Made by a program: the position numbers and the translations under genes. From contig MGUU01000024.1 in NCBI GenBank assembly GCA_001800135.1, positions 1 to 64,000 on the forward strand: a stretch of 64,000 nt of DNA, read 5' to 3'. Below, piece by piece: positions 120 through 64,000 of this stretch. Positions within the stretch are counted from its first letter, which is position 1. Each line of letters starts with the position of its first letter. Source of the stretch: Elusimicrobia bacterium RIFCSPLOWO2_02_FULL_39_32. Lineage in GTDB: Bacteria > Elusimicrobiota > Elusimicrobia > 2-02-FULL-39-32. The notes beneath the pieces were generated by a model. It did not search any database. It was not told the origin of the DNA and saw only the letters and a program-made list of their open reading frames with translations.

Positions 120-185
120 TTTACAAAATTGTCACAAAAAATTTACAAAAAGTTTAAGACTATTTGAACAGCTCTATGATATAGT
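120..185 (+). promoter_or_regulatory. Promoter of GIANT-1 with a three-copy, 11-bp-phased operator array
   Basis: Three related 8-mers stand exactly 11 bp apart: TTTACAAA at 120, GTCACAAA at 131 and TTTACAAA at 142. A TTTAAGA block follows at 153, again 11 bp on. Twenty bases later lies TATAGT (180-185), a good -10 element. The same layout with the same spacings precedes GIANT-2 and, on the other strand, the M6 protease gene. No TTGACA-like -35 lies 17 bp upstream of the -10, which suits an activator-dependent promoter or an alternative sigma factor. The repeats are on one face of the helix, so cooperative binding of one regulator is likely (inference). Confidence 0.75.
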
Positions 186-27836: not shown

Positions 27837-28156
27837 TCCCGGGTAGCTCAATGGTGGAGCATCCCGCTGTAAACCCATGCAGCCTTGTCTGGAAACAGGC
27901 AAGTGAATAACCAGGTGAACTCAGGGAAGCCTAAGTCCTCATAAAGGATAAGGTAATCCTGAGCCAAGTTCCGACCATAAATCGGAAAAGGTGCAGAGAC
28001 TAGAACGTAAAGTTCGTACTCTATGAATTAGGGGAAGCGCCTGGCTCCGTAAAGAAAAATTATTTTCTTCGGAGATGATATAGTCCAAGCCTTAAGGAAA
28101 CTTAAGGATTACTTGTAACGGGAGGGTTGTAGGTTCGAGTCCTACCCCGGGAGCCA
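27837..28156 (+). tRNA. tRNA-Asn(GUU) split by a group I intron in the anticodon loop
   Basis: Exon 1 is 27837-27870 and exon 2 is 28116-28156; CCA is encoded. The acceptor stem TCCCGGG/CCCGGGA is perfect, the D stem is GCTC/GAGC, the anticodon stem TCCCG/CGGGA, the T stem GTAGG/CCTAC with loop TTCGAGT, and the variable loop is short. Joining after T27870 and before T28116 gives the seven-base loop CTGTTAA, the canonical tRNA-Asn loop with anticodon GUU. The unspliced sequence shows GTA and might be misread as tRNA-Tyr, but bacterial tRNA-Tyr has a long variable arm, which is absent here. Confidence 0.93.
27871..28115 (+). ncRNA. Group I intron (IC3-like), 245 nt, no ORF
   Basis: All core elements are visible. 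P1: exon GCTGT (27866-27870) pairs with GCAGC (27879-27883), putting the required U-G wobble at the splice site. P2: 27884-27891 with 27896-27903, closed by GAAA. P4: CTCAGG (27920-27925) with CCTGAG (27958-27963), within the P and Q sequences. R: GGTGCAGAGACTAG (27990-28003); S: TATAGTCCAAGC (28079-28090), forming P7. P9: CCTTAAG-GAAA-CTTAAGG (28090-28107). The intron ends with the obligatory G (28115). The P, Q, R and S strings closely resemble the Anabaena tRNA-Leu intron. It is small, lacks a homing endonuclease gene and is probably self-splicing. It sits between positions 35 and 36 of the tRNA. Confidence 0.92.
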
Positions 28157-28169
28157 AATAGGACGGTCC

Positions 28170-29331: not shown

Positions 29332-30930
29332 TTAGAGAAGACCATGTTCTTTTCTAAAACCTGCCGGATCCACATCCCGAGTAAAAGATTTTGGCGGCTT
29401 GCCCAGAAGGATCATCAACTCTTGAATGTCAAAAATCCCATAATGTTCATCTGTAAAAGCTACAATTTTGGAACGGGTCTGAGAAATTGTATTGAGGCGG
29501 AATCTCCGAATTCCTTCTTCTGTGAGCTTCTGCCCCAATTCGGTGCGATAGGCATTAGTCAGATTGTACATGCATAATGTCAAAACGGCGTGAGCCGTCA
29601 CGGCTCGCTCTGTTTTCTTTGGGATCTTATTGATCAGCCATCCTTGTTTGAGTTCCCGGTTGGTTGTATTTTCAATAAGGCTGCGCCAATCGTATTTGTC
29701 GATAATTCCCAATGGATTAGACACTCCCAACGATGTCAAAAAAACCTTCTCATGTCCGGGATCGTAGTCTCTGCCATTCCAATGTGTCACCATAACCACA
29801 TGGATGGGATTGCCTTTGAAATCCTTGGCATGCGGATTTTTTTTCTGATGCTCCTCATCTCCATATTGATCATAACTGGTCAGTCCCAAGATCCCTACTA
29901 CCTTTAAGTTCTTGCTCTGCTGCCGGAAAATGATCTTCGGATCTTTCCCATCCCTCAAACCGCGCGCATCCTTGGTCACTGCCATGTCAGTGCGCGCTGG
30001 AATAATCCAGTCGATATGATAGGTATGCTTTAAGATCCAAAGAGTCAAACCATCCAGATAGCCCCTGTCGATTAGAAGCAGTTTGATCCTGCCAGATCCT
30101 ATGTTTTCTATGGCTTGCTGGATCAATGGCAGCGTCCAATTCTTTTCGGATTCATGTATCTGCGTGACCTTGGCCGCCACGATGATTCGCGAATCCAGGC
30201 TCCGCAGCAACATCAACTTGAATCCAAAGGTTGTTATTGAAAGGGTCACCAGTCTTTTCTCTTTGCGGCTCCAGACTTCTTTGTCTACCGTCTTGCGTCC
30301 TGCCCCTCCGCACTTCTCTGTGGTTGGTAGGTCTGTGGCATCCATCAAATACGTCCGATCCTTGATAAATCCTCGCTTGGACAAGAGCTTAACCCCTCCA
30401 TTTAAAATACCCTCTAACTCCCGGGGTGAAAAACGATCCAAAGCGTCGGCAAGGGTGTCTTTATGCAAGGGACGATTTTTCTTCCCTTGGCCTCTTTTGC
30501 AGTGTCCATTCTCGATCTGTTCGGCCGTGTAGCCCAGCATCATGAGCAACCCAATATCCCCAAACAGTAATCTTGGCACTTGATTCATCGAGTTTATGCC
30601 CATCAGAATCTTTATCTGGTATGTCAAAAGCAGTTTGGCAATGGTAATCATTCTCCGCGCGTATCCTTCCCCAGCCACATCCAAGCATTCCAGAAATCCA
30701 ATCGTCTTGATGAAGATTAAAAACTTGTCCAGAAAACCCCACCCCCCATGCTGGATCATGCGATAATCTCCTTTCACAATCCGTTGGGCGACCTCCTTCT
30801 GGTCTCGGGTCAGATGCCTCCACGCCAAATACTGGCGGTTCTTCCGCGCAGCTCGGCGCTGTCCGCGCTTGCGCGCCTGCTCCCGGTCCCGTTGATCCTT
30901 AACTGCCTGATTCCTTTTTTTACGGGCCAT
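29332..30930 (-). CDS. IS4-superfamily DDE transposase
   Basis: This 532-residue protein has a catalytic triad in the expected contexts: D197 in LMDATDLP, D288 in LLIDRGYLDG and E420 in YDWRSLIEN, which resembles the IS4-type YxxR...E signature. The long stretch between the second D and the E fits the beta-strand insertion of this superfamily. The N-terminus is very basic (MARKKRNQAVKDQRDREQ) and could bind the inverted repeats. The start overlaps the end of the upstream accessory ORF by 11 nt, suggesting coupled translation. The frame is intact. The closest named IS group (for example IS1634-like) cannot be decided here. Confidence 0.85.
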   Translation of the reverse strand: MARKKRNQAVKDQRDREQARKRGQRRAARKNRQYLAWRHLTRDQKEVAQRIVKGDYRMIQHGGWGFLDKFLIFIKTIGFLECLDVAGEGYARRMITIAKLLLTYQIKILMGINSMNQVPRLLFGDIGLLMMLGYTAEQIENGHCKRGQGKKNRPLHKDTLADALDRFSPRELEGILNGGVKLLSKRGFIKDRTYLMDATDLPTTEKCGGAGRKTVDKEVWSRKEKRLVTLSITTFGFKLMLLRSLDSRIIVAAKVTQIHESEKNWTLPLIQQAIENIGSGRIKLLLIDRGYLDGLTLWILKHTYHIDWIIPARTDMAVTKDARGLRDGKDPKIIFRQQSKNLKVVGILGLTSYDQYGDEEHQKKNPHAKDFKGNPIHVVMVTHWNGRDYDPGHEKVFLTSLGVSNPLGIIDKYDWRSLIENTTNRELKQGWLINKIPKKTERAVTAHAVLTLCMYNLTNAYRTELGQKLTEEGIRRFRLNTISQTRSKIVAFTDEHYGIFDIQELMILLGKPPKSFTRDVDPAGFRKEHGLL

Positions 30931-53672: not shown

Positions 53673-56600
53673 CTAACGTTGGATCGCAATTTTAACTGTT
53701 TTTGTTTTTCCGCTTTCTTTGACTAAAGCAAAATAGATTCCGCTCTCTACTTTTTGATCAGATTCAGTTTGAGCGTTCCACTTGACCCTGCCGTCGCCAT
53801 CTTCATCCTTAAGCTGTTTAACTAAATTACCTGAAAGCGTATAAATCTTAATTTCCGAATAGGCAGGAAGACCTCTAAAGATAATCCCATTATTTATATG
53901 CTCACTATTTCCGGGTTTAAATGGATTAGGATAGACCATAATATCAGAAGTAATATCCGCTGCATATTCCATAATCGCGAATAAAGTAAGATGATCTACT
54001 TTTCCAATCACTCTTTTATTGGTTCTGTCCACGCTTGAATTTGGAACTAGAACCCAAAGGCCGGTAGATTCGTCATAATAGAAGAGGCGAAGAAGATGTT
54101 CATTTAGGTTCGATATATCACTGTCAGCATAAGGAAGATTAATTGTTACTTCTTTTTTAAATTTTTTTGTTCCATCAGTTAAGGTAATTTCTCTCATGAT
54201 TCCAGTTCCTTTTATTTTTGGATCATTTTGCAAAGGAGGAGCGTTTGTTTTTTCTTCAATCATAATTTGCGTGGAGTTGGCTAAAGCGTCTGGCGGAATT
54301 TCCACTTGCACCCCATCTGCTGTGGCAAAGATATTTTTATTCGTTATGTCAATTAAAGACCGAACCACAAATTTGTAATGAGCGGCTTGTGCGCCGCTAT
54401 TGCCAGCCCCGTCTTTGGCAATTGAATGAAAGTACCAGGTGTTATCTGCTATAGGGATAGATTCTTTGCAAGTTCCATCGCTTGAAAAATTGTCTGACTG
54501 AGAGGGAGTAGAATCAGGCAGACTGTCCACTTTCCAGTAATAGCCTGAAACGCCTGAAGAATCTTCAGGCCCTGAAACTTTAAACTCTGGTTTTGGTTCT
54601 GGGTAACTATTAGTTGAATTTGGATGTGTTTTAGAAATAATGGAACTTGGTTTTTTTGGAGCGGTTAAATCTATTTTAATTCCATTGGAATTGTCAGAAT
54701 AGCTCCCATAGAGGCCAGCTCCATTTTTTGCCCGTACTCTTGCATAGTAAGTTTCCCCTTCTTTTGCGCCTGTGACTGTTTTTGAAAAAACATTGCCTAC
54801 ATCCCCATCAAAAAGGTTCGATCCACCCGGACTATTTCCAACCTGCAAATAATATCCTGCGATTCCAGTTTCTAAATCTTGAGCCGTGCCAGATTCCCAG
54901 CTAAAAGGTATGCTGGTTGAATTCGTGTATGTTCCTTGATCTTCAGGCACAGATGGGGCGCCAACAACAGGTGTATTATCTTGAATAGTGAGTGAAACTG
55001 AAATAGTAACTTCGGAGCTGGAAGAGTTTGGGTCTGAGATCACAACTGTGGTTTTGTGAGTTCCTACAGCCAGACCAAATGGTTTTACTGAAACTGTAAT
55101 TTGGGTTTGATCATTTTTTGCCATATATCCAGAATTAGAAGAAAGAGTTAACCATGAATTGGAAACTTTTCCTGTCCAGTTTAAAGTGGAATTTTCTGCT
55201 CCTGTATTCGTAATGGTAAAAATTTGAGGATCGCTGCTATTAGATGCATAAGCAGCAGTGAAACTTAGAGAATTTTTATTAAGAGAGATGGTAGGAATGG
55301 GTAAGCTAATATCTGCTGTCATGGTGGCTGAGGAGTTGCTGATATTGGAAATGCTAATATTGCTATTAGAACCATTATAAAATTTGCTGGAAGGATTGGA
55401 ACTATTATTAAAAGTTTTATTGCCGGATGATCCAGGATATGGATCTCCGCTATCTCCATAACTTGAGCTACTGTCTAATTGATTTAAACCATCTGCTTCC
55501 ACTAAATCCACAAGTTTTCTTGATTCATTTCCATTGCCTGATTGAGATTCATCAATATGCCAGATTAAAAGCCCTGAGCTAGGCAGCGCCTGATCATATC
55601 CGGTTTTTTGCCTATTTTCAATTAAAAAATATTCTCCTGTGCCGAACATTTCTGGGCCATTAGGGTTAGATAAGAGTTGTTTGATTCCTCTGTCAGAATT
55701 TTCAGATGTTTCAACTTGGCTGAAGGAAGCTCCTGTGATAAAGTTTTTTATCTGGGTAGGAGTGACCCATCCTAAATAAGATTTGCTCCAAGCGCTATGG
55801 TGGCTAGGGCTGTCTCCGGCATAGAGTATTCCATTCCATGAACCAGAAGCCATAATATCCCAATCTCCAATTCCAGCTGAGGAACCATTTGAACTATCCG
55901 TATCATAAAGATCAGGCAGACCTAAATCATGGGACAGTTCATGACAAATGATCCCTATTGTGGCTTGATGATTATAGTGCAGTTCGCCAAATTGCGTATA
56001 TCCGCTTGAAAATCCAGCCACTGTGGCGCCATCTACAACTGGAGGGTCAACAAAGAAAATTGACCAGCGATGCCCCCAAACAGAGGGTGTGGTTGGGGAG
56101 TAGGCTGTTTCATAACCTGCGGGTATGATGACAACATGCAATTCATCTGTAGAGAGATAACCATCATTATTGGCATCAAAGGAAGCAAAATTTACATAAG
56201 AATCAGCTGCGAGAATTGCATCTTTGGTAAGTTGTTGATTGGTCTCATCAATGTTAGAACCCGTGTTGGGATGGTTGTAAGATAAGGTGACTACTACAAT
56301 TCCATTGTTAGCAGTCCCATTGCTCTCTTGCGCAGGCGCCATGGTCAGTTGGTCATAAGAAACTTCTTTAAAATATTTTTTTACGCTGTTGGTTGCGCCA
56401 AAAAATTTTTCTTCCCAATCTGCTTCTGTAGTCGTTAAATTTCGATTTTTAAAATTGACCAGTATCGCTAAAATTTTGTGCGTGCCTAAAGTTGGTTCTA
56501 CCGATGCTGCTGCTTGCGCGGAAAATTGGGGAGCAAAAAAACTAGGAGCTCCACGCGTTTTAATTGCTTTAAGAGTCTCTAAGTCAGAAGATGTGATTTT

Positions 56601-56936
56601 TTTTATGCCTTGCGGCTGGTCTTTGCCAACGATAAGGTTGCTGGGAACAAGACCTTTCGTTGAATCTATTTTTGCGTATTCAAAATAAAGGCTTTCTTTA
56701 TTTAAGATAACAGGATAACCCTCTTCAGTTTCCAGCCAGTTTGCCCACTCATCTCCTTTATTAAGAACTTTTATTTTAGTTCCATCCGGCTGTTCAATGG
56801 ATTGCCATTGTTTAAACCCTGGGGCGGAAAATAGAGGGGGCTGAACCCAGAATAAAATAGAAAAAAGAGTCAGGATAAAGATAAAAAAATCCCGGTTCAA
56901 AATCATTTTGCTTTGGCTTTGTGACCTGGTTCTCAT
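53673..56936 (-). CDS. Secreted M6-type (immune inhibitor A-like) metalloprotease with C-terminal beta domains
   Basis: After an N-terminal signal segment (FFIFILTLFSILFWVQPPLF) comes an M6-family catalytic domain with HELSHDLGLPD (H332, E333, H336, counted from the ATG at 56936), the HExxHxxGxxD zinc motif. DANNDGYLSTDEL looks like a calcium loop. Beta domains follow: a BACON-like one (SLSFTAAYASNSSDPQIFTI), a fibronectin-like one, and one starting DGVQVEIPPDA. The last 90 residues (YPNPFKPGN to the KIAIQR end) resemble FlgD-like or type IX sorting tails. ATG 56936 lies just 7 nt after the -10, so the mRNA may be leaderless; ATG 56906 is an alternative. It shares its regulatory array with both giant genes. 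Confidence 0.85.
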   Translation of the reverse strand: MRTRSQSQSKMILNRDFFIFILTLFSILFWVQPPLFSAPGFKQWQSIEQPDGTKIKVLNKGDEWANWLETEEGYPVILNKESLYFEYAKIDSTKGLVPSNLIVGKDQPQGIKKITSSDLETLKAIKTRGAPSFFAPQFSAQAAASVEPTLGTHKILAILVNFKNRNLTTTEADWEEKFFGATNSVKKYFKEVSYDQLTMAPAQESNGTANNGIVVVTLSYNHPNTGSNIDETNQQLTKDAILAADSYVNFASFDANNDGYLSTDELHVVIIPAGYETAYSPTTPSVWGHRWSIFFVDPPVVDGATVAGFSSGYTQFGELHYNHQATIGIICHELSHDLGLPDLYDTDSSNGSSAGIGDWDIMASGSWNGILYAGDSPSHHSAWSKSYLGWVTPTQIKNFITGASFSQVETSENSDRGIKQLLSNPNGPEMFGTGEYFLIENRQKTGYDQALPSSGLLIWHIDESQSGNGNESRKLVDLVEADGLNQLDSSSSYGDSGDPYPGSSGNKTFNNSSNPSSKFYNGSNSNISISNISNSSATMTADISLPIPTISLNKNSLSFTAAYASNSSDPQIFTITNTGAENSTLNWTGKVSNSWLTLSSNSGYMAKNDQTQITVSVKPFGLAVGTHKTTVVISDPNSSSSEVTISVSLTIQDNTPVVGAPSVPEDQGTYTNSTSIPFSWESGTAQDLETGIAGYYLQVGNSPGGSNLFDGDVGNVFSKTVTGAKEGETYYARVRAKNGAGLYGSYSDNSNGIKIDLTAPKKPSSIISKTHPNSTNSYPEPKPEFKVSGPEDSSGVSGYYWKVDSLPDSTPSQSDNFSSDGTCKESIPIADNTWYFHSIAKDGAGNSGAQAAHYKFVVRSLIDITNKNIFATADGVQVEIPPDALANSTQIMIEEKTNAPPLQNDPKIKGTGIMREITLTDGTKKFKKEVTINLPYADSDISNLNEHLLRLFYYDESTGLWVLVPNSSVDRTNKRVIGKVDHLTLFAIMEYAADITSDIMVYPNPFKPGNSEHINNGIIFRGLPAYSEIKIYTLSGNLVKQLKDEDGDGRVKWNAQTESDQKVESGIYFALVKESGKTKTVKIAIQR

Positions 56937-56943
56937 TACCAAA

Positions 56944-57009
56944 ATTATAGCTAGGTTCCTCTAACTATTCTTCAACTTTTTGTAACAAATTTGTAACACT
57001 TTTTGTAAC
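56944..57009 (-). promoter_or_regulatory. Promoter and operator array of the M6 protease gene
   Basis: Read on the minus strand, three perfect GTTACAAA copies begin at 57009, 56997 and 56986 (steps of 12 and 11), then TTGAAGA begins at 56975 (11 on), and TATAAT (56949-56944) follows after 19 bp. This is the same layout as the promoters of the two giant genes. Confidence 0.75.
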
Positions 57010-57019
57010 GCTTTTTTCC

Positions 57020-57085
57020 GTTACAAAATTGTTACAAAAATGTCACAAAAAGTTTAAGATCAAACGACCTGTTTTGCCGTATAAT
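57020..57085 (+). promoter_or_regulatory. Promoter and operator array of GIANT-2
   Basis: GTTACAAA at 57020 and 57031, GTCACAAA at 57042 and TTTAAGA at 57053 stand exactly 11 bp apart. TATAAT (57080-57085) follows TTTAAGA after 20 bp. All these distances equal those of the GIANT-1 promoter. The array is separated from the opposing protease array by only 10 bp, making a bidirectional control region. Confidence 0.78.
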
Positions 57086-57138: not shown

Positions 57139-60100
57139 ATGAAAAAAATGTTTTCCTTAGTTCTGGCAGCTTCTTTGCTCTTTAGCATGGCGGCCCCAAG
57201 TTTTGCCCAAGCTAAAATCTATGAAAGGCAAAGAGTTGACCAGCTGCGCGCTTTAAGCCAATTCACAAAAAATCCTCTTGCTTTAGTTGTGCAACACCTT
57301 GCGGAAAAATTGGTTCAGAATCCAAAACAGTTCCATTTATTTTACGAACAATATATCCATGAATTAGAAACCATAAGTAAAAAAGAGAATGAGTTTAAAG
57401 TTCCATTTAAATCTCTTGCCAACAGATTTCTTTTCGCAACCCCGATTTTTAGCGTACGAGATGAAAAAATTTATGTTTTAGCCGCAATCAGGGGAAAACA
57501 TTTTCAAACCAATCTGGCGCTGATATTTTCTAAAGATGGGAACTTTGAGTCTAAGGTAGAAAAAGATTTTGAAATCAAAAAATTACTTACAGAAAATGAA
57601 TTCAAAGTAAATGAAAACTGGGAGCTTAAAGATATAAGAAGAGGACTATCCTTATGGCCTAACTTCCTTGTAGAGCCTCAGAAAGAGGGATCAAAATTAA
57701 ATTTTAAACCGAATCAGCTTATCGCCGATCTTCATGCAAAGAGCCCTTTTAAAAAACAAGACAGGATAAAGAAAAAAAGTTTTGAACCTTGGGTAAAAGC
57801 AGCATCCATTCTTTTAGTTTTAAACCTCACTACTCTTTTAACTCAGGGCTGCGTTTCAGTAATAACGGAACAATCTTCCATGTCTGTAGCTTCTTTTCCT
57901 TTTATGAATCTTTATTTTACGGCGATTGCGTTAATCTTATTGAATCTATACAGTCTGATCACTAAACATCAAAATTATTTTCCAGCTTTTGTTTTTTACC
58001 CCTATTTTTCAGTAAAGAAAGTACGGTTGCCAGATTGGCTATTTCTATCCAATTTAATACCCGGCAAAGGGAACGAGCCAGAGGGCAAATCAGCCCAACT
58101 AAACGAGATTCGCGCTTCTGATGGAGAATCGGAGTTAGAACCGGCTCCCCAAACAAAAATAAATACAAAACATATCACAGATGGATTTAATAAAGTTCGG
58201 CTGATGGATGTTACAGGAGTTGAAAGGCTGGGAGTTATGGGGGATGTGCAAGCAAATTATTTGCAGATGTTAAATGCCCTTGAAAAATCCGGATTTATTG
58301 ACAGCAAAGGAGATTGGATTGCAGGTTCAGCAGTTCTTATCTTTGATGGAGACTTAATAGACGGCGGGCCAAATCCATGGGAGGTATTACAGTTTGTTTA
58401 TAGTCTTCAAAACAAGGCGAGCGCTCAAGGAGGAAAAGTCATTGCAGTGATGGGCAATCATGAATATATGTTTTTAAACAGCGTTGAAGGAAGAGATCGC
58501 TACGCGCGAGAGTTGATTTGGACCCATTGGTTGAGTGATGACAATGCCATGACCGGGCTCAATACTTTGAAAAAATTGCTTGGCAGAGAACATTTAGATT
58601 CAAACTGGGAAAAAGATAGCCATGCTGAGTTAGGGTATGCGGTTCAAAATAGAGAAGAACTTTTAAGAGAAATTCATGAACGGTATCCGGAATTGAATAA
58701 CATTCTAAGATGGATGCAGCATTCCATGCCTTATGCGGTGCGAATCAATGAAAATGTTTTGGCAGCGCATGCAGCTCCAGATTTTTATGCCAGGACATTT
58801 GAAGAGATCGCTTCTAGCGCCAGAGGAGAACTAATGACTATACAGGATAGGGAATGGGTCAGTAATTCTCAACGCGTAAGAGAGTGGATGAAAAGGTTGG
58901 GATTTGAATATTTTGTTTATGGTCATACCTGCCAAACTCCAATTGGTGTAGGGAAAAATGGAGGCATTCAAGGCAAAGTCAGTCAAATCATGCCTAAAAT
59001 TTACAATATAAATACAACTCCTCGTCAGGCAGCAGAGGGAGGGGCTGCGGCTGTTCTAGAATTTTTATTTGACAGAAACTTAGCGCATACTGTTAAAGTG
59101 ACCTATGGGGAGAACGAGTTTGGCTTAGAAGATGAAATTTTTGAACATTACTCAGTTAAAGTTTATCGCGCTTTTATGGAGGCTGCGGAAAAAATTGGGG
59201 CTAAGGGATTACTTGACTTTATTACCAAGAACATTAATCACAAAAATATGGTTAGACAATCTTCAGAAGGTCAAGTCTATAAAATTGAGGGCTTAGAGGA
59301 TTATGAACTTCACCTCCCACCAGATATTAAATTTGATGATTTTAAACCTGTACAGGATCCTTTTCCAAAGAGTAATTTTGGTCAGGCGGTTGCTCAGTTG
59401 GGCAGTGTGACTATTCATAAGAGATTATTCGGAGTTCCCTATAGTGTATCTTCCCTTTCATTTGAAGAGAGTCCAACTTTAGATTCCCTATATGAAAAGC
59501 ATCTTGAGATTGCCGCAGGAATGGCTCAAAGCGCTTATGACAACTTAGCCATAGACTTAAAAAATATTCAGGATGCTGGTTATACGCTTGATTTAACAAA
59601 TTCAAATAATATTTTTATTGATCCAGAACATTCAAGATTTCAACCGCATCAACTGATTTTAGAAAAAGACGATTCATTGACTCATGCTTCAAGGTTGGCG
59701 GCTTGTCTCCTCAATCATGAGTTTGCGGCAGAAAAATATAATGGAAAGGACCCTCGCATATTTTATTGGCGAAGATTAATCCTTGAAAAATCTTTAATCG
59801 CAGCTCAAACTAGTGGACTCATATTTTCAAATGAGGATTATCAGAATCATGCATTATTTAATTTTGATTCTGAAATGGAGTTAGCTTTTGAATGGGCCGG
59901 CTTAAAAGGAGAATGGCCAAAAGTACAAAGTAGGATGATGGAAAAAGTCGAGGTTCAGAAAATTTTTTCAGATTATCCATCTACTTTACCCAAAAAGGGA
60001 TTGGTTTTGTCTAGCAGACAGAGAGCAGGCTTAAGAGGTTTTGAAGAGATTTTTTACAGCGCTCTTTTAGTTGGTGGAATAGGAGAAATCTGGAATCATC

Positions 60101-63100
60101 TATTTTGGGCAGCTCCCACGATTGGTTATTTAATCGGTTCTGTTATCAGCCTGCTCCTCTTTATGAAAACACACAAAAAACCAATTTATTTAACCTCTGA
60201 AGGCGTTCTCACTCACGCACCTCCTTTAGGAATGGATGAAGAAGCAGCTCAACTAAGAGCAAAAAAAATTCTTTTTTTAATAGCAGTCACTCTACGATCC
60301 ATTTATCTTTTAACTCTTTATCTATCTCCCTTTGGAAATATCATTGACCTGATCCTTGCAACCATTGCAGCTATTGTTGCGCATGGGTTTATTTATAACA
60401 GCAAACTAGCTCCAAGATATTATTGGCCTTTAGCAATGGCTTCTCCAACTAAGCGAACCGAATTTAAATCAGAACAAGATAGAGAACGTTCAGAAATTGC
60501 TGCGCGTTCCATTAAACATGGTTCATGGAATGAACTCTCTATTAAATTATCCGTTCTTTATAAAGCCATGACACAATTAGATGAGCCAGATCGTTTAAGT
60601 TTAGAAACAGGAGATCATCTTCAAGGGCTTAGGGATCGTTTAGACCTTTATGCTGAACGAGTCAGCCTTCAATTTCAAGATCATGAACTGCTTGAGTATA
60701 GAGAAGTTTTAGAAATTTTAATCGGTTTTTTAAAGAACGAAATTGGACCGCGTCTTAATAATAAAGCTTTGATCAGCCTTTCAAACCATTCTACTCTTCA
60801 AGTTTATCACACCCGTTCCATTGAAATTATAGAGGATTTAATTTCTTTTATTGATGGAAATATAGAGGAACGGAAAACAACATTTGGAATTAAGGAAGTA
60901 ATTGAGGAAGCGTTCGAGAATGTATTTAATGAATCATTTAGGGAAAGATATGCGAAAAGAGGGAATGAAATTACTTTGGAATTTGAAAGTTTTGAAAATA
61001 ACCTTATTGAAAGTGCTGGGGACAGAAGAAAAATTCTAAATGTTTTTAGAACCTTATTTATGAACACAAGGCAGGTATGGCAGGAGAGATTACAAGCTGA
61101 AGCTAAAGACAATGTTCCGCCGCCTTTATCCTTAGAGTTGAGCGTTAAATTAAGATGGGTTGGAGATAAACCTATTCTTGAAATAATAGATAATGCAGGA
61201 GGATTTCAGAATGACGGGCTCTTGGATGTCCCAGAGAGTCAAGAACCAGATCGGCAAAAGATGTTTTTCTTAAATGTTTCAGAACGTAAAGGAGGATCTG
61301 GGTTAGGTTTAGCAGAAGTCTGGCATCTCATAAAACTTCACAGCATTAAAGATCAGCCTGCATGGATTCATGCCAGCAATCTTTCAGATCACAAAAGCAG
61401 AAAAAAAGGAGCTAAATTTACTATTTTTCTGCCAGAACTTATTGTCAAAACTGAAAGTAAATCAGAGGATACACCAGATGATCCAAACATAAAGATACTT
61501 AATAAACATAATTGGATTTTGTCTAAAGCTCGAAGGGAATTAGGACTCAAGCTTGCTGGACGCGGCGGAGGTTATTTTAGATTTTTTAAGGAGAAGGGAC
61601 TGCTGCGAGAGTTAAAGAAAAAGATCATTGAAAGATTAATTGAACACCATTGGAATTTTATTAAAACAGCTCAAAGTTTAGGAATTAACGAAATAACATT
61701 AAGAAATTTTAGAAAAGAGCTTAAAATCAAAACTTCTAGAAAAATAAAGAATTCTGCTGCTAAAGTCAGATCAGAAAACAATCCAATTATCTTTGAATCT
61801 TCAATGATTTCAGATGAGGAATTATTGAGTAGAAAACCTTCATTAAAACCTACAGTTAAGAAAAAGAATCAATTTATCCAAGGGCTAGATATTTTTGCAG
61901 ATATGGTTTTAGCTGACATGAGAAGAAATGGCGTAACCCCTGAAGATTTTATTAAAGAGGCGGAAAAATATGCGTTAGTTCGTATGGAGATTTTATCTAG
62001 GCTTAACCGCAAGGATAGAAAATTCTTTGCGCAATATACAGATAATAAAGAGCTGGAACTTATTTTTAAGGCTATGGAAACAGCTGAAACCTATTTGGGA
62101 AACTCTTATAAAAATTATTTTGTTGGAATTATAAAAGACTATTTTGAAAAAGGTTCTTCATTTATTTTTGAAGATTTTTGCAGATTAGACCTTTGGTTTA
62201 AACAGAATGATGAATGGTATAAAAATCTTTTTGACATTCCAATGGATTATAGACCCAGAGAAAATGATATTGGCGCTCTATTTGAAGAACTTACAGGTTT
62301 TAGTTTGGAATCCATTCATGACAGGGATGGGGTACTTTCTATCCCCTATCTTTATTATGCCATGCAGGTAAGAAAGTCAGTTAATCCTGAACATAAACCA
62401 CTAGTTGCGGTATATGGCGGAGCAGGCGCTGATATTTCAACATTTTTATTATCCACAGATGCTTCTACAGGTTATTTTGTTACGCAAAATCAAGTAGATG
62501 CCGAACAACTTAAAAGTATGATGGAACAATGGGATTCAATAACATTTGATGACGATTATGCTAAAGATAAAAGGCTTTATGGTTTTGGAAATGGCGGAAC
62601 TCTTGATAAAAGAAAGGGCGCAATTTATAAAGCGATAGTCCAAGAACTAAAAACAATTGGAGTTAGAAAAGAATCTGTAAGAATTGAAAATAAGGATGGT
62701 CATACAAAAATTATTTTAGACTGGGTTTACCCGGGGACCAATCAGCCTAGAACTTATTCAATTACTTATATAAAGCAGCGGTTGCAGAAGATTGGCAGCC
62801 CTGAAACAACTGACCCTTTGCTTAATTCTGCGCTTGAAAAAGGCATTGATATCTACTATCAAAAAGCTGTACAGGATACAAATAACTTATGGGGTCAATT
62901 CTTGCCTAGGGTTGCAAAAGCAATTAGAGTGGGAGGCGCTTCCATTACAGATGATTACCAATCCATAAGCGGTATTCACAACCCTGAACCGTTTCTTAAT
63001 ACAGAGTCACATCATTTTGTTTCACTTAAACAGAATTCCTCTAAAAAAATATTCGATTGGTGGAAAAAAATAATTCCTTCAAAATCTAACTACGGTTGGG

Positions 63101-64000
63101 ACGTAACGATCAGAATAAAAAAAGAACAACCTCAACAACAACTTATTACTGCTGTCGCAAAAGCCAAAGATAGAACAAGTGGCGTTAAAGCAGAGGACCT
63201 GCCTTTAGTGGCATTGGCGGATTTGGTGGCAACAGATATGGTCAGGGCTCATATCCCTCCAGAAAAATTTGCGGAAAAAGCAGAAGAATATACGATTGCA
63301 AGAATTTATGCGCTTTCTAAAATGGATCCGAAATGGTTAGAAGAAGCTCGAGATTTTACAATAACTAAAAATTTAAAATTAATCTATACGTTACTTCAGA
63401 CTGCAACTATAAACTGGGGGGCTGAACCCCAAGTTCAGCTTGCAGGCTTGATAAAAGCTTATTTTAAAAGTAAAGATTTTAAAGCTCTGCTTCCTCAATT
63501 TAAGAAAGAATACGATCATGTCCCATCTAATTTTTCTCAGTGGTTAAATAAAAATAAGAAAATAGTTCTTTCAAAAAGATTTAAGAAAGGTGAATTATCT
63601 AAAATTGTCAGCCGCATTACAGGGTTTAACCCAGAAATTATTAAAGACCGCACCTCAGTTCTTTTACTTCCCTTTGTTCATTACGCAATGTCAGTTTGTG
63701 AGATTGTGAACCCGGATCATAAAGATTTAGTGGGACTCTATGGCGGAGCAGGCGCTGATATTTCTTCCTTCCTGCTTTCAACAGACGCAGGCACAGGGTA
63801 TTTTGTTACAAACAATAGCGTGGATGTCCATAAATTACAATCCTATTTAAGGGAATGGGATTCTAAAACAGTCGAGTCTGATTATACTGACCAGGAGTAC
63901 ACTTACAAAAAACGTTTGAGGGGTTTTGGAGAGGGCGCTTTTTTACAAAACAGTCCTGAAAACATTTATTGGGCAATTGCAGCTGAACTTAAAAGCATGG
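57139..64000 (+). CDS. GIANT-2 (partial, at least 2,287 residues): exported protein with phosphatase, GHKL ATPase, Fis-like HTH and repeated modules
   Basis: No stop codon occurs before the window ends. A signal peptide ends near residue 25 (SFAQA then KIY); two membrane helices follow at about 217-235 and 258-275. A PPP/calcineurin-like phosphatase site is complete in outline: GDVQAN (D369), DGDLIDGG (D403, D405), GNHE (N440, H441), H544 in AHAAP and YGHT (H596). A membrane region lies at about 967-1100. A GHKL ATPase domain has DNAGG (D1351) and GGSGLGL (1385-1391). Two Fis-like helix-turn-helix segments follow, about 1455-1480 and 1495-1532 (WNFIKTAQSLGINEITLRNF). From about 1580, units of roughly 440 residues begin, each a helical segment plus the VGLY-YYQR-YGW module; the second is cut by the window. 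A four-codon reading frame (57119-57133) precedes the start. Confidence 0.85.
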   Translation, partial: MKKMFSLVLAASLLFSMAAPSFAQAKIYERQRVDQLRALSQFTKNPLALVVQHLAEKLVQNPKQFHLFYEQYIHELETISKKENEFKVPFKSLANRFLFATPIFSVRDEKIYVLAAIRGKHFQTNLALIFSKDGNFESKVEKDFEIKKLLTENEFKVNENWELKDIRRGLSLWPNFLVEPQKEGSKLNFKPNQLIADLHAKSPFKKQDRIKKKSFEPWVKAASILLVLNLTTLLTQGCVSVITEQSSMSVASFPFMNLYFTAIALILLNLYSLITKHQNYFPAFVFYPYFSVKKVRLPDWLFLSNLIPGKGNEPEGKSAQLNEIRASDGESELEPAPQTKINTKHITDGFNKVRLMDVTGVERLGVMGDVQANYLQMLNALEKSGFIDSKGDWIAGSAVLIFDGDLIDGGPNPWEVLQFVYSLQNKASAQGGKVIAVMGNHEYMFLNSVEGRDRYARELIWTHWLSDDNAMTGLNTLKKLLGREHLDSNWEKDSHAELGYAVQNREELLREIHERYPELNNILRWMQHSMPYAVRINENVLAAHAAPDFYARTFEEIASSARGELMTIQDREWVSNSQRVREWMKRLGFEYFVYGHTCQTPIGVGKNGGIQGKVSQIMPKIYNINTTPRQAAEGGAAAVLEFLFDRNLAHTVKVTYGENEFGLEDEIFEHYSVKVYRAFMEAAEKIGAKGLLDFITKNINHKNMVRQSSEGQVYKIEGLEDYELHLPPDIKFDDFKPVQDPFPKSNFGQAVAQLGSVTIHKRLFGVPYSVSSLSFEESPTLDSLYEKHLEIAAGMAQSAYDNLAIDLKNIQDAGYTLDLTNSNNIFIDPEHSRFQPHQLILEKDDSLTHASRLAACLLNHEFAAEKYNGKDPRIFYWRRLILEKSLIAAQTSGLIFSNEDYQNHALFNFDSEMELAFEWAGLKGEWPKVQSRMMEKVEVQKIFSDYPSTLPKKGLVLSSRQRAGLRGFEEIFYSALLVGGIGEIWNHLFWAAPTIGYLIGSVISLLLFMKTHKKPIYLTSEGVLTHAPPLGMDEEAAQLRAKKILFLIAVTLRSIYLLTLYLSPFGNIIDLILATIAAIVAHGFIYNSKLAPRYYWPLAMASPTKRTEFKSEQDRERSEIAARSIKHGSWNELSIKLSVLYKAMTQLDEPDRLSLETGDHLQGLRDRLDLYAERVSLQFQDHELLEYREVLEILIGFLKNEIGPRLNNKALISLSNHSTLQVYHTRSIEIIEDLISFIDGNIEERKTTFGIKEVIEEAFENVFNESFRERYAKRGNEITLEFESFENNLIESAGDRRKILNVFRTLFMNTRQVWQERLQAEAKDNVPPPLSLELSVKLRWVGDKPILEIIDNAGGFQNDGLLDVPESQEPDRQKMFFLNVSERKGGSGLGLAEVWHLIKLHSIKDQPAWIHASNLSDHKSRKKGAKFTIFLPELIVKTESKSEDTPDDPNIKILNKHNWILSKARRELGLKLAGRGGGYFRFFKEKGLLRELKKKIIERLIEHHWNFIKTAQSLGINEITLRNFRKELKIKTSRKIKNSAAKVRSENNPIIFESSMISDEELLSRKPSLKPTVKKKNQFIQGLDIFADMVLADMRRNGVTPEDFIKEAEKYALVRMEILSRLNRKDRKFFAQYTDNKELELIFKAMETAETYLGNSYKNYFVGIIKDYFEKGSSFIFEDFCRLDLWFKQNDEWYKNLFDIPMDYRPRENDIGALFEELTGFSLESIHDRDGVLSIPYLYYAMQVRKSVNPEHKPLVAVYGGAGADISTFLLSTDASTGYFVTQNQVDAEQLKSMMEQWDSITFDDDYAKDKRLYGFGNGGTLDKRKGAIYKAIVQELKTIGVRKESVRIENKDGHTKIILDWVYPGTNQPRTYSITYIKQRLQKIGSPETTDPLLNSALEKGIDIYYQKAVQDTNNLWGQFLPRVAKAIRVGGASITDDYQSISGIHNPEPFLNTESHHFVSLKQNSSKKIFDWWKKIIPSKSNYGWDVTIRIKKEQPQQQLITAVAKAKDRTSGVKAEDLPLVALADLVATDMVRAHIPPEKFAEKAEEYTIARIYALSKMDPKWLEEARDFTITKNLKLIYTLLQTATINWGAEPQVQLAGLIKAYFKSKDFKALLPQFKKEYDHVPSNFSQWLNKNKKIVLSKRFKKGELSKIVSRITGFNPEIIKDRTSVLLLPFVHYAMSVCEIVNPDHKDLVGLYGGAGADISSFLLSTDAGTGYFVTNNSVDVHKLQSYLREWDSKTVESDYTDQEYTYKKRLRGFGEGAFLQNSPENIYWAIAAELKSM

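Follow-up and report, generated by a model that had tools for sequence, protein, structure and literature searches.

At promoters controlled by PhoB, the direct repeats of the pho box replace the -35 element; they follow an 11-bp step, and about 15-16 bp separate the start of the proximal repeat from the -10 hexamer. The PmrA box reads YTTAAK-N5-YTTAAK and the PhoP box GTTTA-N5/6-GTTTA. Binding sites of the OmpR/PhoB family are 11-bp direct repeats, often in more than two copies, an example being ArcA, whose boxes in E. coli are spaced 11 bp centre to centre, often occur in 3-5 copies and have a GTTA-like half-site (PMC3798270). Giant open reading frames (ORFs) are reported to be common in Elusimicrobia and Omnitrophota and to have no known function (PMC10066038, PMC12057145, PMC11573180). 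Text searches of open-access papers found no description of a regulon or common regulator of giant genes.

The stretch of DNA analysed here, a window of 64 kb (contig C24), carries three arrays of repeats at 11-bp steps. Array 1 (120-159, plus strand) consists of the half-sites TTTACAAA (120-127), GTCACAAA (131-138), TTTACAAA (142-149) and TTTAAGA (153-159), and array 2 (57020-57059, plus strand) of GTTACAAA (57020-57027), GTTACAAA (57031-57038), GTCACAAA (57042-57049) and TTTAAGA (57053-57059), in both cases at 11-bp steps. Exactly 20 bp past the fourth element lies a -10 box, TATAGT at 180-185 for array 1 and TATAAT at 57080-57085 for array 2. Array 3 (56969-56997, minus strand) stands back-to-back with array 2 and reads GTTACAAA-TTT-GTTACAAA-AAG-TTGAAGA, with an extra GTTACAAA upstream at 57002-57009 after a 12-bp step and a TATAAT at 56944-56949 (minus strand). 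With up to three mismatches allowed, the extended pattern GTYACAAANNNKTTACAAANAGTTKAAGA matched only these three arrays in the whole window, and it was absent from 100 dinucleotide shuffles of the window. Direct reading thus bore out the two arrays with exact 11-bp steps reported in the preliminary description, at a frequency far above chance. A single identical 40-bp copy of array 1 is present elsewhere in the genome (C16:285559-285598).

The arrays head three ORFs, and these are the longest in the window. Array 1 precedes a giant gene of 7350 aa (244-22296, plus strand) with the exported-type N-terminus MIQFWIQKYNRRWLALTGGLVSLSFIFTTISAPFAQA and Pfam M48 peptidase and ABC1-kinase-like stretches. 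Array 2 precedes a second giant (57139-64000, plus strand; 6091 aa, extending past the window end), also with an exported-type N-terminus and with metallophosphoesterase, methyltransferase-like and HEAT-like stretches. Its divergent partner downstream of array 3 is an exported-type, M6-peptidase-like gene of 1089 aa (53673-56942, minus strand); since the listed TTG start falls inside the promoter, the true start is probably the ATG at 56936 or 56906. Stretches resembling cytosolic enzymes occur inside the first giant and inside other exported-type giants (L075:7544-19795, L076:12538-19842, L086:6548-19834 and L088:10013-19747, all minus strand). They comprise triosephosphate isomerase with a GAPDH C-terminal stretch, proline dehydrogenase with phosphoglycerate kinase, SecA motor domains, patatin, M48 peptidase and ABC1 kinase.

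Pattern searches of the whole genome (2.52 Mb, 27 contigs) identified about 40 copies of a near-invariant element, [GTYACAAA-N3][KTTACAAA-AAG][TTKAAGA-N4][TT..], followed by a -10 hexamer at a set distance. The sites can be read as one long element, in which two or three GTYACAAA/KTTACAAA repeats lead into AAG-TTKAAGA-MAAG-TT. Exact GTTACAAA-N2-4-GTTACAAA pairs numbered 20 genome-wide versus 0 in the reversed control, and GTTACAAA pairs with a fixed 3-bp gap and up to two mismatches 58 versus 10. A chance origin of the arrays was rejected, the shuffle and reversed-control counts falling far below those observed. A 36-bp matrix built from 37 sites gave bimodal scores against a background of 0.63 Mb of fetched sequence, the listed sites reaching about 30 bits and above (27 bits for the lower-scoring C10:128263) and the best unrelated place 12.9. 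Weak or coding-region matches at two mismatches, such as C14:16019, C16:133871, C18:25040 and C20:58937, lacked the AAGTTKAAGA block and were dropped. Throughout the 37 sites the 11-bp steps form tandem direct half-sites, as expected of an OmpR/PhoB-family operator, whose half-sites are spaced 10-11 bp centre to centre. Counted from the C of the final full repeat, most of these sites have the first base of the -10 hexamer 33 or 34 bases further on; the 20-bp gap described earlier, exact in both window arrays, is 19 or 20 bp at most sites genome-wide. This offset, confined to two adjacent positions in most sites of two independent sets, fits a class II activator promoter. The -35 position is occupied by TTKAAG and separated from the -10 by about 20 bp, a spacer that we infer from established promoter rules to be too long for ordinary sigma-70 recognition.

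Where the first downstream gene could be read, its length reached 1000 aa or more at 26 of the 37 sites, many of these ORFs being 2000-7700 aa long. At three further sites the giant is the second gene, after a gene of 279 or 288 aa; these giants have open frames of 10,747 and 11,491 aa. This two-gene unit, in which a giant of more than 10,000 aa comes after a protein of 255-288 aa, is conserved in two families (C16:285598, C16:332275, L306:5204-10001). Starting from the genes gave a similar result. A profile of the giants' common N-terminus, A1 (consensus MIxFWIxKxNRxxLQxTAxxVxxSFLFTTxSAPFAQA), detected 31 places in the genome, 28 of them with a plausible start. The element lies upstream of 23 of these 28 signal-peptide genes (21 within 500 bp and two more within 2 kb, 0.1 being expected by chance) and is absent within 2 kb of the other five. 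A sister species (G001) has the element within 500 bp of 25 of its 32 A1 genes and within 2 kb of two more. The giants are called exported-type from their signal-peptide-like N-terminus. The proposed regulon of giant exported proteins was thus upheld in that the pattern is not scattered at random but stands mostly before giants of the exported type. Not every target is a giant, however: the others include a LacI-type regulator, a receiver protein and exported-type proteins of small size.

The exact form of the element was found in all nine genomes of the window's family, at 2-39 copies each at the stringency used, and in none of 51 other genomes of the class, nor in the reversed control. A looser form is more widespread. 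The scan of related genomes that the preliminary description had proposed revealed that four other families (f4, f6, f11 and f12) keep the architecture and the 11-bp register upstream of A1-type genes, where 16 exact KTTACA pairs are spaced at 11 bp and none at 6-10 or 12-30 bp; over whole loci in other families there were 18 such pairs at 11 bp and none at other spacings. Among 22 arrays of the four families, TTAA is present at +22 in 20 and at +33 in 15, neither having been used for selection, and a -10 lies at +48/49 in 17, as in the window's family. On this comparison of sequences, the broader array architecture is older than the exact form of the window's family. The TTAA at +33 in the other families reveals a fourth half-site, whose counterpart in the window's family is a degenerate TT.

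The arrays resemble pho-box promoters in having repeats in place of the -35 element, in the 11-bp step and in the position of the fourth half-site, in register with the proximal pho-box repeat. They differ in having four half-sites in unlike pairs and giant exported targets, the pst and phoB genes having no array. Their TTAAG/TTTAAG pair at 11 bp recalls the PmrA and PhoP boxes, a likeness of half-site sequence alone, and unlike those boxes the arrays carry a KTTACA pair ahead, in register. ArcA boxes vary in position and mainly repress, whereas the arrays have a fixed position relative to the -10 and two repeat types (PMC3798270). The giants themselves resemble those of Omnitrophota and Elusimicrobia in being very long, poorly annotated and exported or surface-type, with the difference that a common promoter and regulator is indicated here and none is mentioned in the available parts of those reports (PMC10066038, PMC12057145, PMC11573180). 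The regulation is of a known kind, applied to a gene class whose control was unknown.

The genome encodes three OmpR-type response regulators, of the winged-helix Trans_reg_C kind. One of these, RR1 (C17:37507-38205), is of the OmpR/PhoB family; its start lies 9 bp away from an array of three repeats, which faces the other way, toward a giant of 4876 aa. This distance is 9-13 bp in four genomes (G000, G001, G003 and G006), and a weaker array is present in a fifth (G008). G006 has only a handful of arrays, two of them in the RR1 neighbourhood, and no A1-type giants were detected in it; one of its arrays stands before the gene of a 708-aa sensor (L303:717-2843) that carries a nucleotide cyclase domain and lies near RR1. 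In three genomes of other families (G013, G022 and G033), RR1 orthologues adjoin A1-type giants, and the orthologues form one clade (support 98/97). RR1 was not found in G021 and G028 (96% completeness) despite their giants and arrays. The gene next to RR1 in G013 and G022 encodes a membrane histidine kinase whose sensor domain is of the Cache type, and a soluble receiver-kinase and a receiver protein adjoin RR1 in the window's genome. In G022 the two-gene unit of a 255-288-aa protein and a giant also sits beside RR1 and the kinase. The closest named match to RR1 in a scan of named genomes was from 'Elusimicrobia bacterium isolate nzgw210' (76% over 181 residues), the other matches being mostly distant regulators; the host of the window thus probably belongs to the nzgw210 lineage. 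Since RR1 starts 9 bp from an array and lies beside arrays or giants in several families, it is the leading candidate regulator of the arrays. The array overlies the RR1 start region, which suggests autorepression of RR1.

The element, its positions, its association with genes, its conservation and the linkage of RR1 to arrays and giants are direct observations. They make it likely that the arrays are the operator-promoters of one regulon, in which an RR1-type OmpR/PhoB response regulator activates about 30 loci, mostly encoding giant exported proteins. Binding, activation rather than repression, the identity of the regulator and the signal belong to the model that we propose. A signal would act on the histidine kinase and lead to phosphorylated RR1. 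Each array would present four half-sites, stepped by 11 bp along one face of the helix. Two would be of KTTACA type and two of TTAAG type, with the final one degenerate in the window's family, and together they would replace the -35 box ahead of an ordinary -10. Phosphorylated RR1 may bind the four half-sites as two head-to-tail dimers and contact the sigma-70 polymerase in place of a -35, switching the giant genes on. The giants thus appear, from the arrangement of these sites, to be switched together by a two-component system. With a shared operator and a two-component system as candidate, the question of when and why giants are made becomes directly testable. The signal, once found, could switch the regulon and show which giants act together, and the motif provides a sequence handle on further regulon members that does not depend on protein similarity.

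A possible, if doubtful, alternative is that a second regulator, RR3 (C17:17581-18246), occupies the arrays, either by itself or together with RR1. Each array consists of two pairs of unlike sequence, and each regulator could take one such pair, yet divergent half-sites are also readable by a single regulator. RR3 tracks the giants slightly better than RR1 across genomes, being present in 16 of 18 genomes with giants versus 2 of 34 without, and either regulator in 18 of 18 versus 2 of 34, but these counts (Fisher test, shared ancestry ignored) are confounded by phylogeny, as is any co-occurrence of the regulators with giants. The two genes lie 10-21 kb apart in G000, G001, G006 and G022; nevertheless the arrays sit at RR1, and a reading of five genomes showed none at the gene for RR3. 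It is unlikely that RR1 and RR3 share the four-repeat operator side by side, with the KTTACA pair taken by one and the TTAAG pair by the other, as an AND-gate releasing all giant surface proteins together. Control by PhoB, making the arrays a phosphate-starvation regulon, is very improbable and was rejected. The half-site does resemble TGTCA/TGTTA, giant 2 contains a metallophosphoesterase domain, and a phoB-phoR-porin-pstSCABB-phoU cluster adjoins a giant with an array, the giant following phoU; in this standard pho-pst operon, however, neither phoB nor the porin gene nor pstS is preceded by an array, and the exact form of the element is absent from the 51 other genomes of the class.

The preliminary description had suggested one activator or a special sigma factor, and the activator branch fits an OmpR/PhoB-type response regulator. 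A dedicated sigma factor reading TTKAAGA and the -10 would account for the fixed distance between the two, but seems most improbable: the -10 is an ordinary TATAMT, a non-canonical -10/-35 pair as at alternative-sigma promoters was not found, most of the conservation lies in the repeats farther upstream, the conserved part as a whole being a four-copy direct repeat, and a spacer of about 20 bp fits a sigma-70 promoter that needs an activator. It is scarcely credible that phased A-tracts act through intrinsic curvature or as an UP element with no sequence-specific protein. A-runs do recur every 11 bp in the window's family, but the linker is mixed elsewhere, with AAAAA in none of the 22 arrays, while KTTACA and TTAA persist, and the information in the 36-bp matrix is highest at G and C positions. 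This reading was rejected on the loss of linker A-runs in families that keep the half-sites, and activation by an RR1-type response regulator is retained as the preferred explanation.

The window contains further features of note. A group I intron (27879-28107) splits a tRNA-like gene ending in CCA (27838-28158) for which there was no ARAGORN call, and a DDE-type transposase gene is present at 29332-30930 (minus strand). The sequence CTGTCCTGTTTTAATGCT at 51-68, upstream of array 1, is also found at the ends of contigs C3, C5, C16 and C21, and because of this recurrence a multi-copy repeat probably breaks the assembly near this position.
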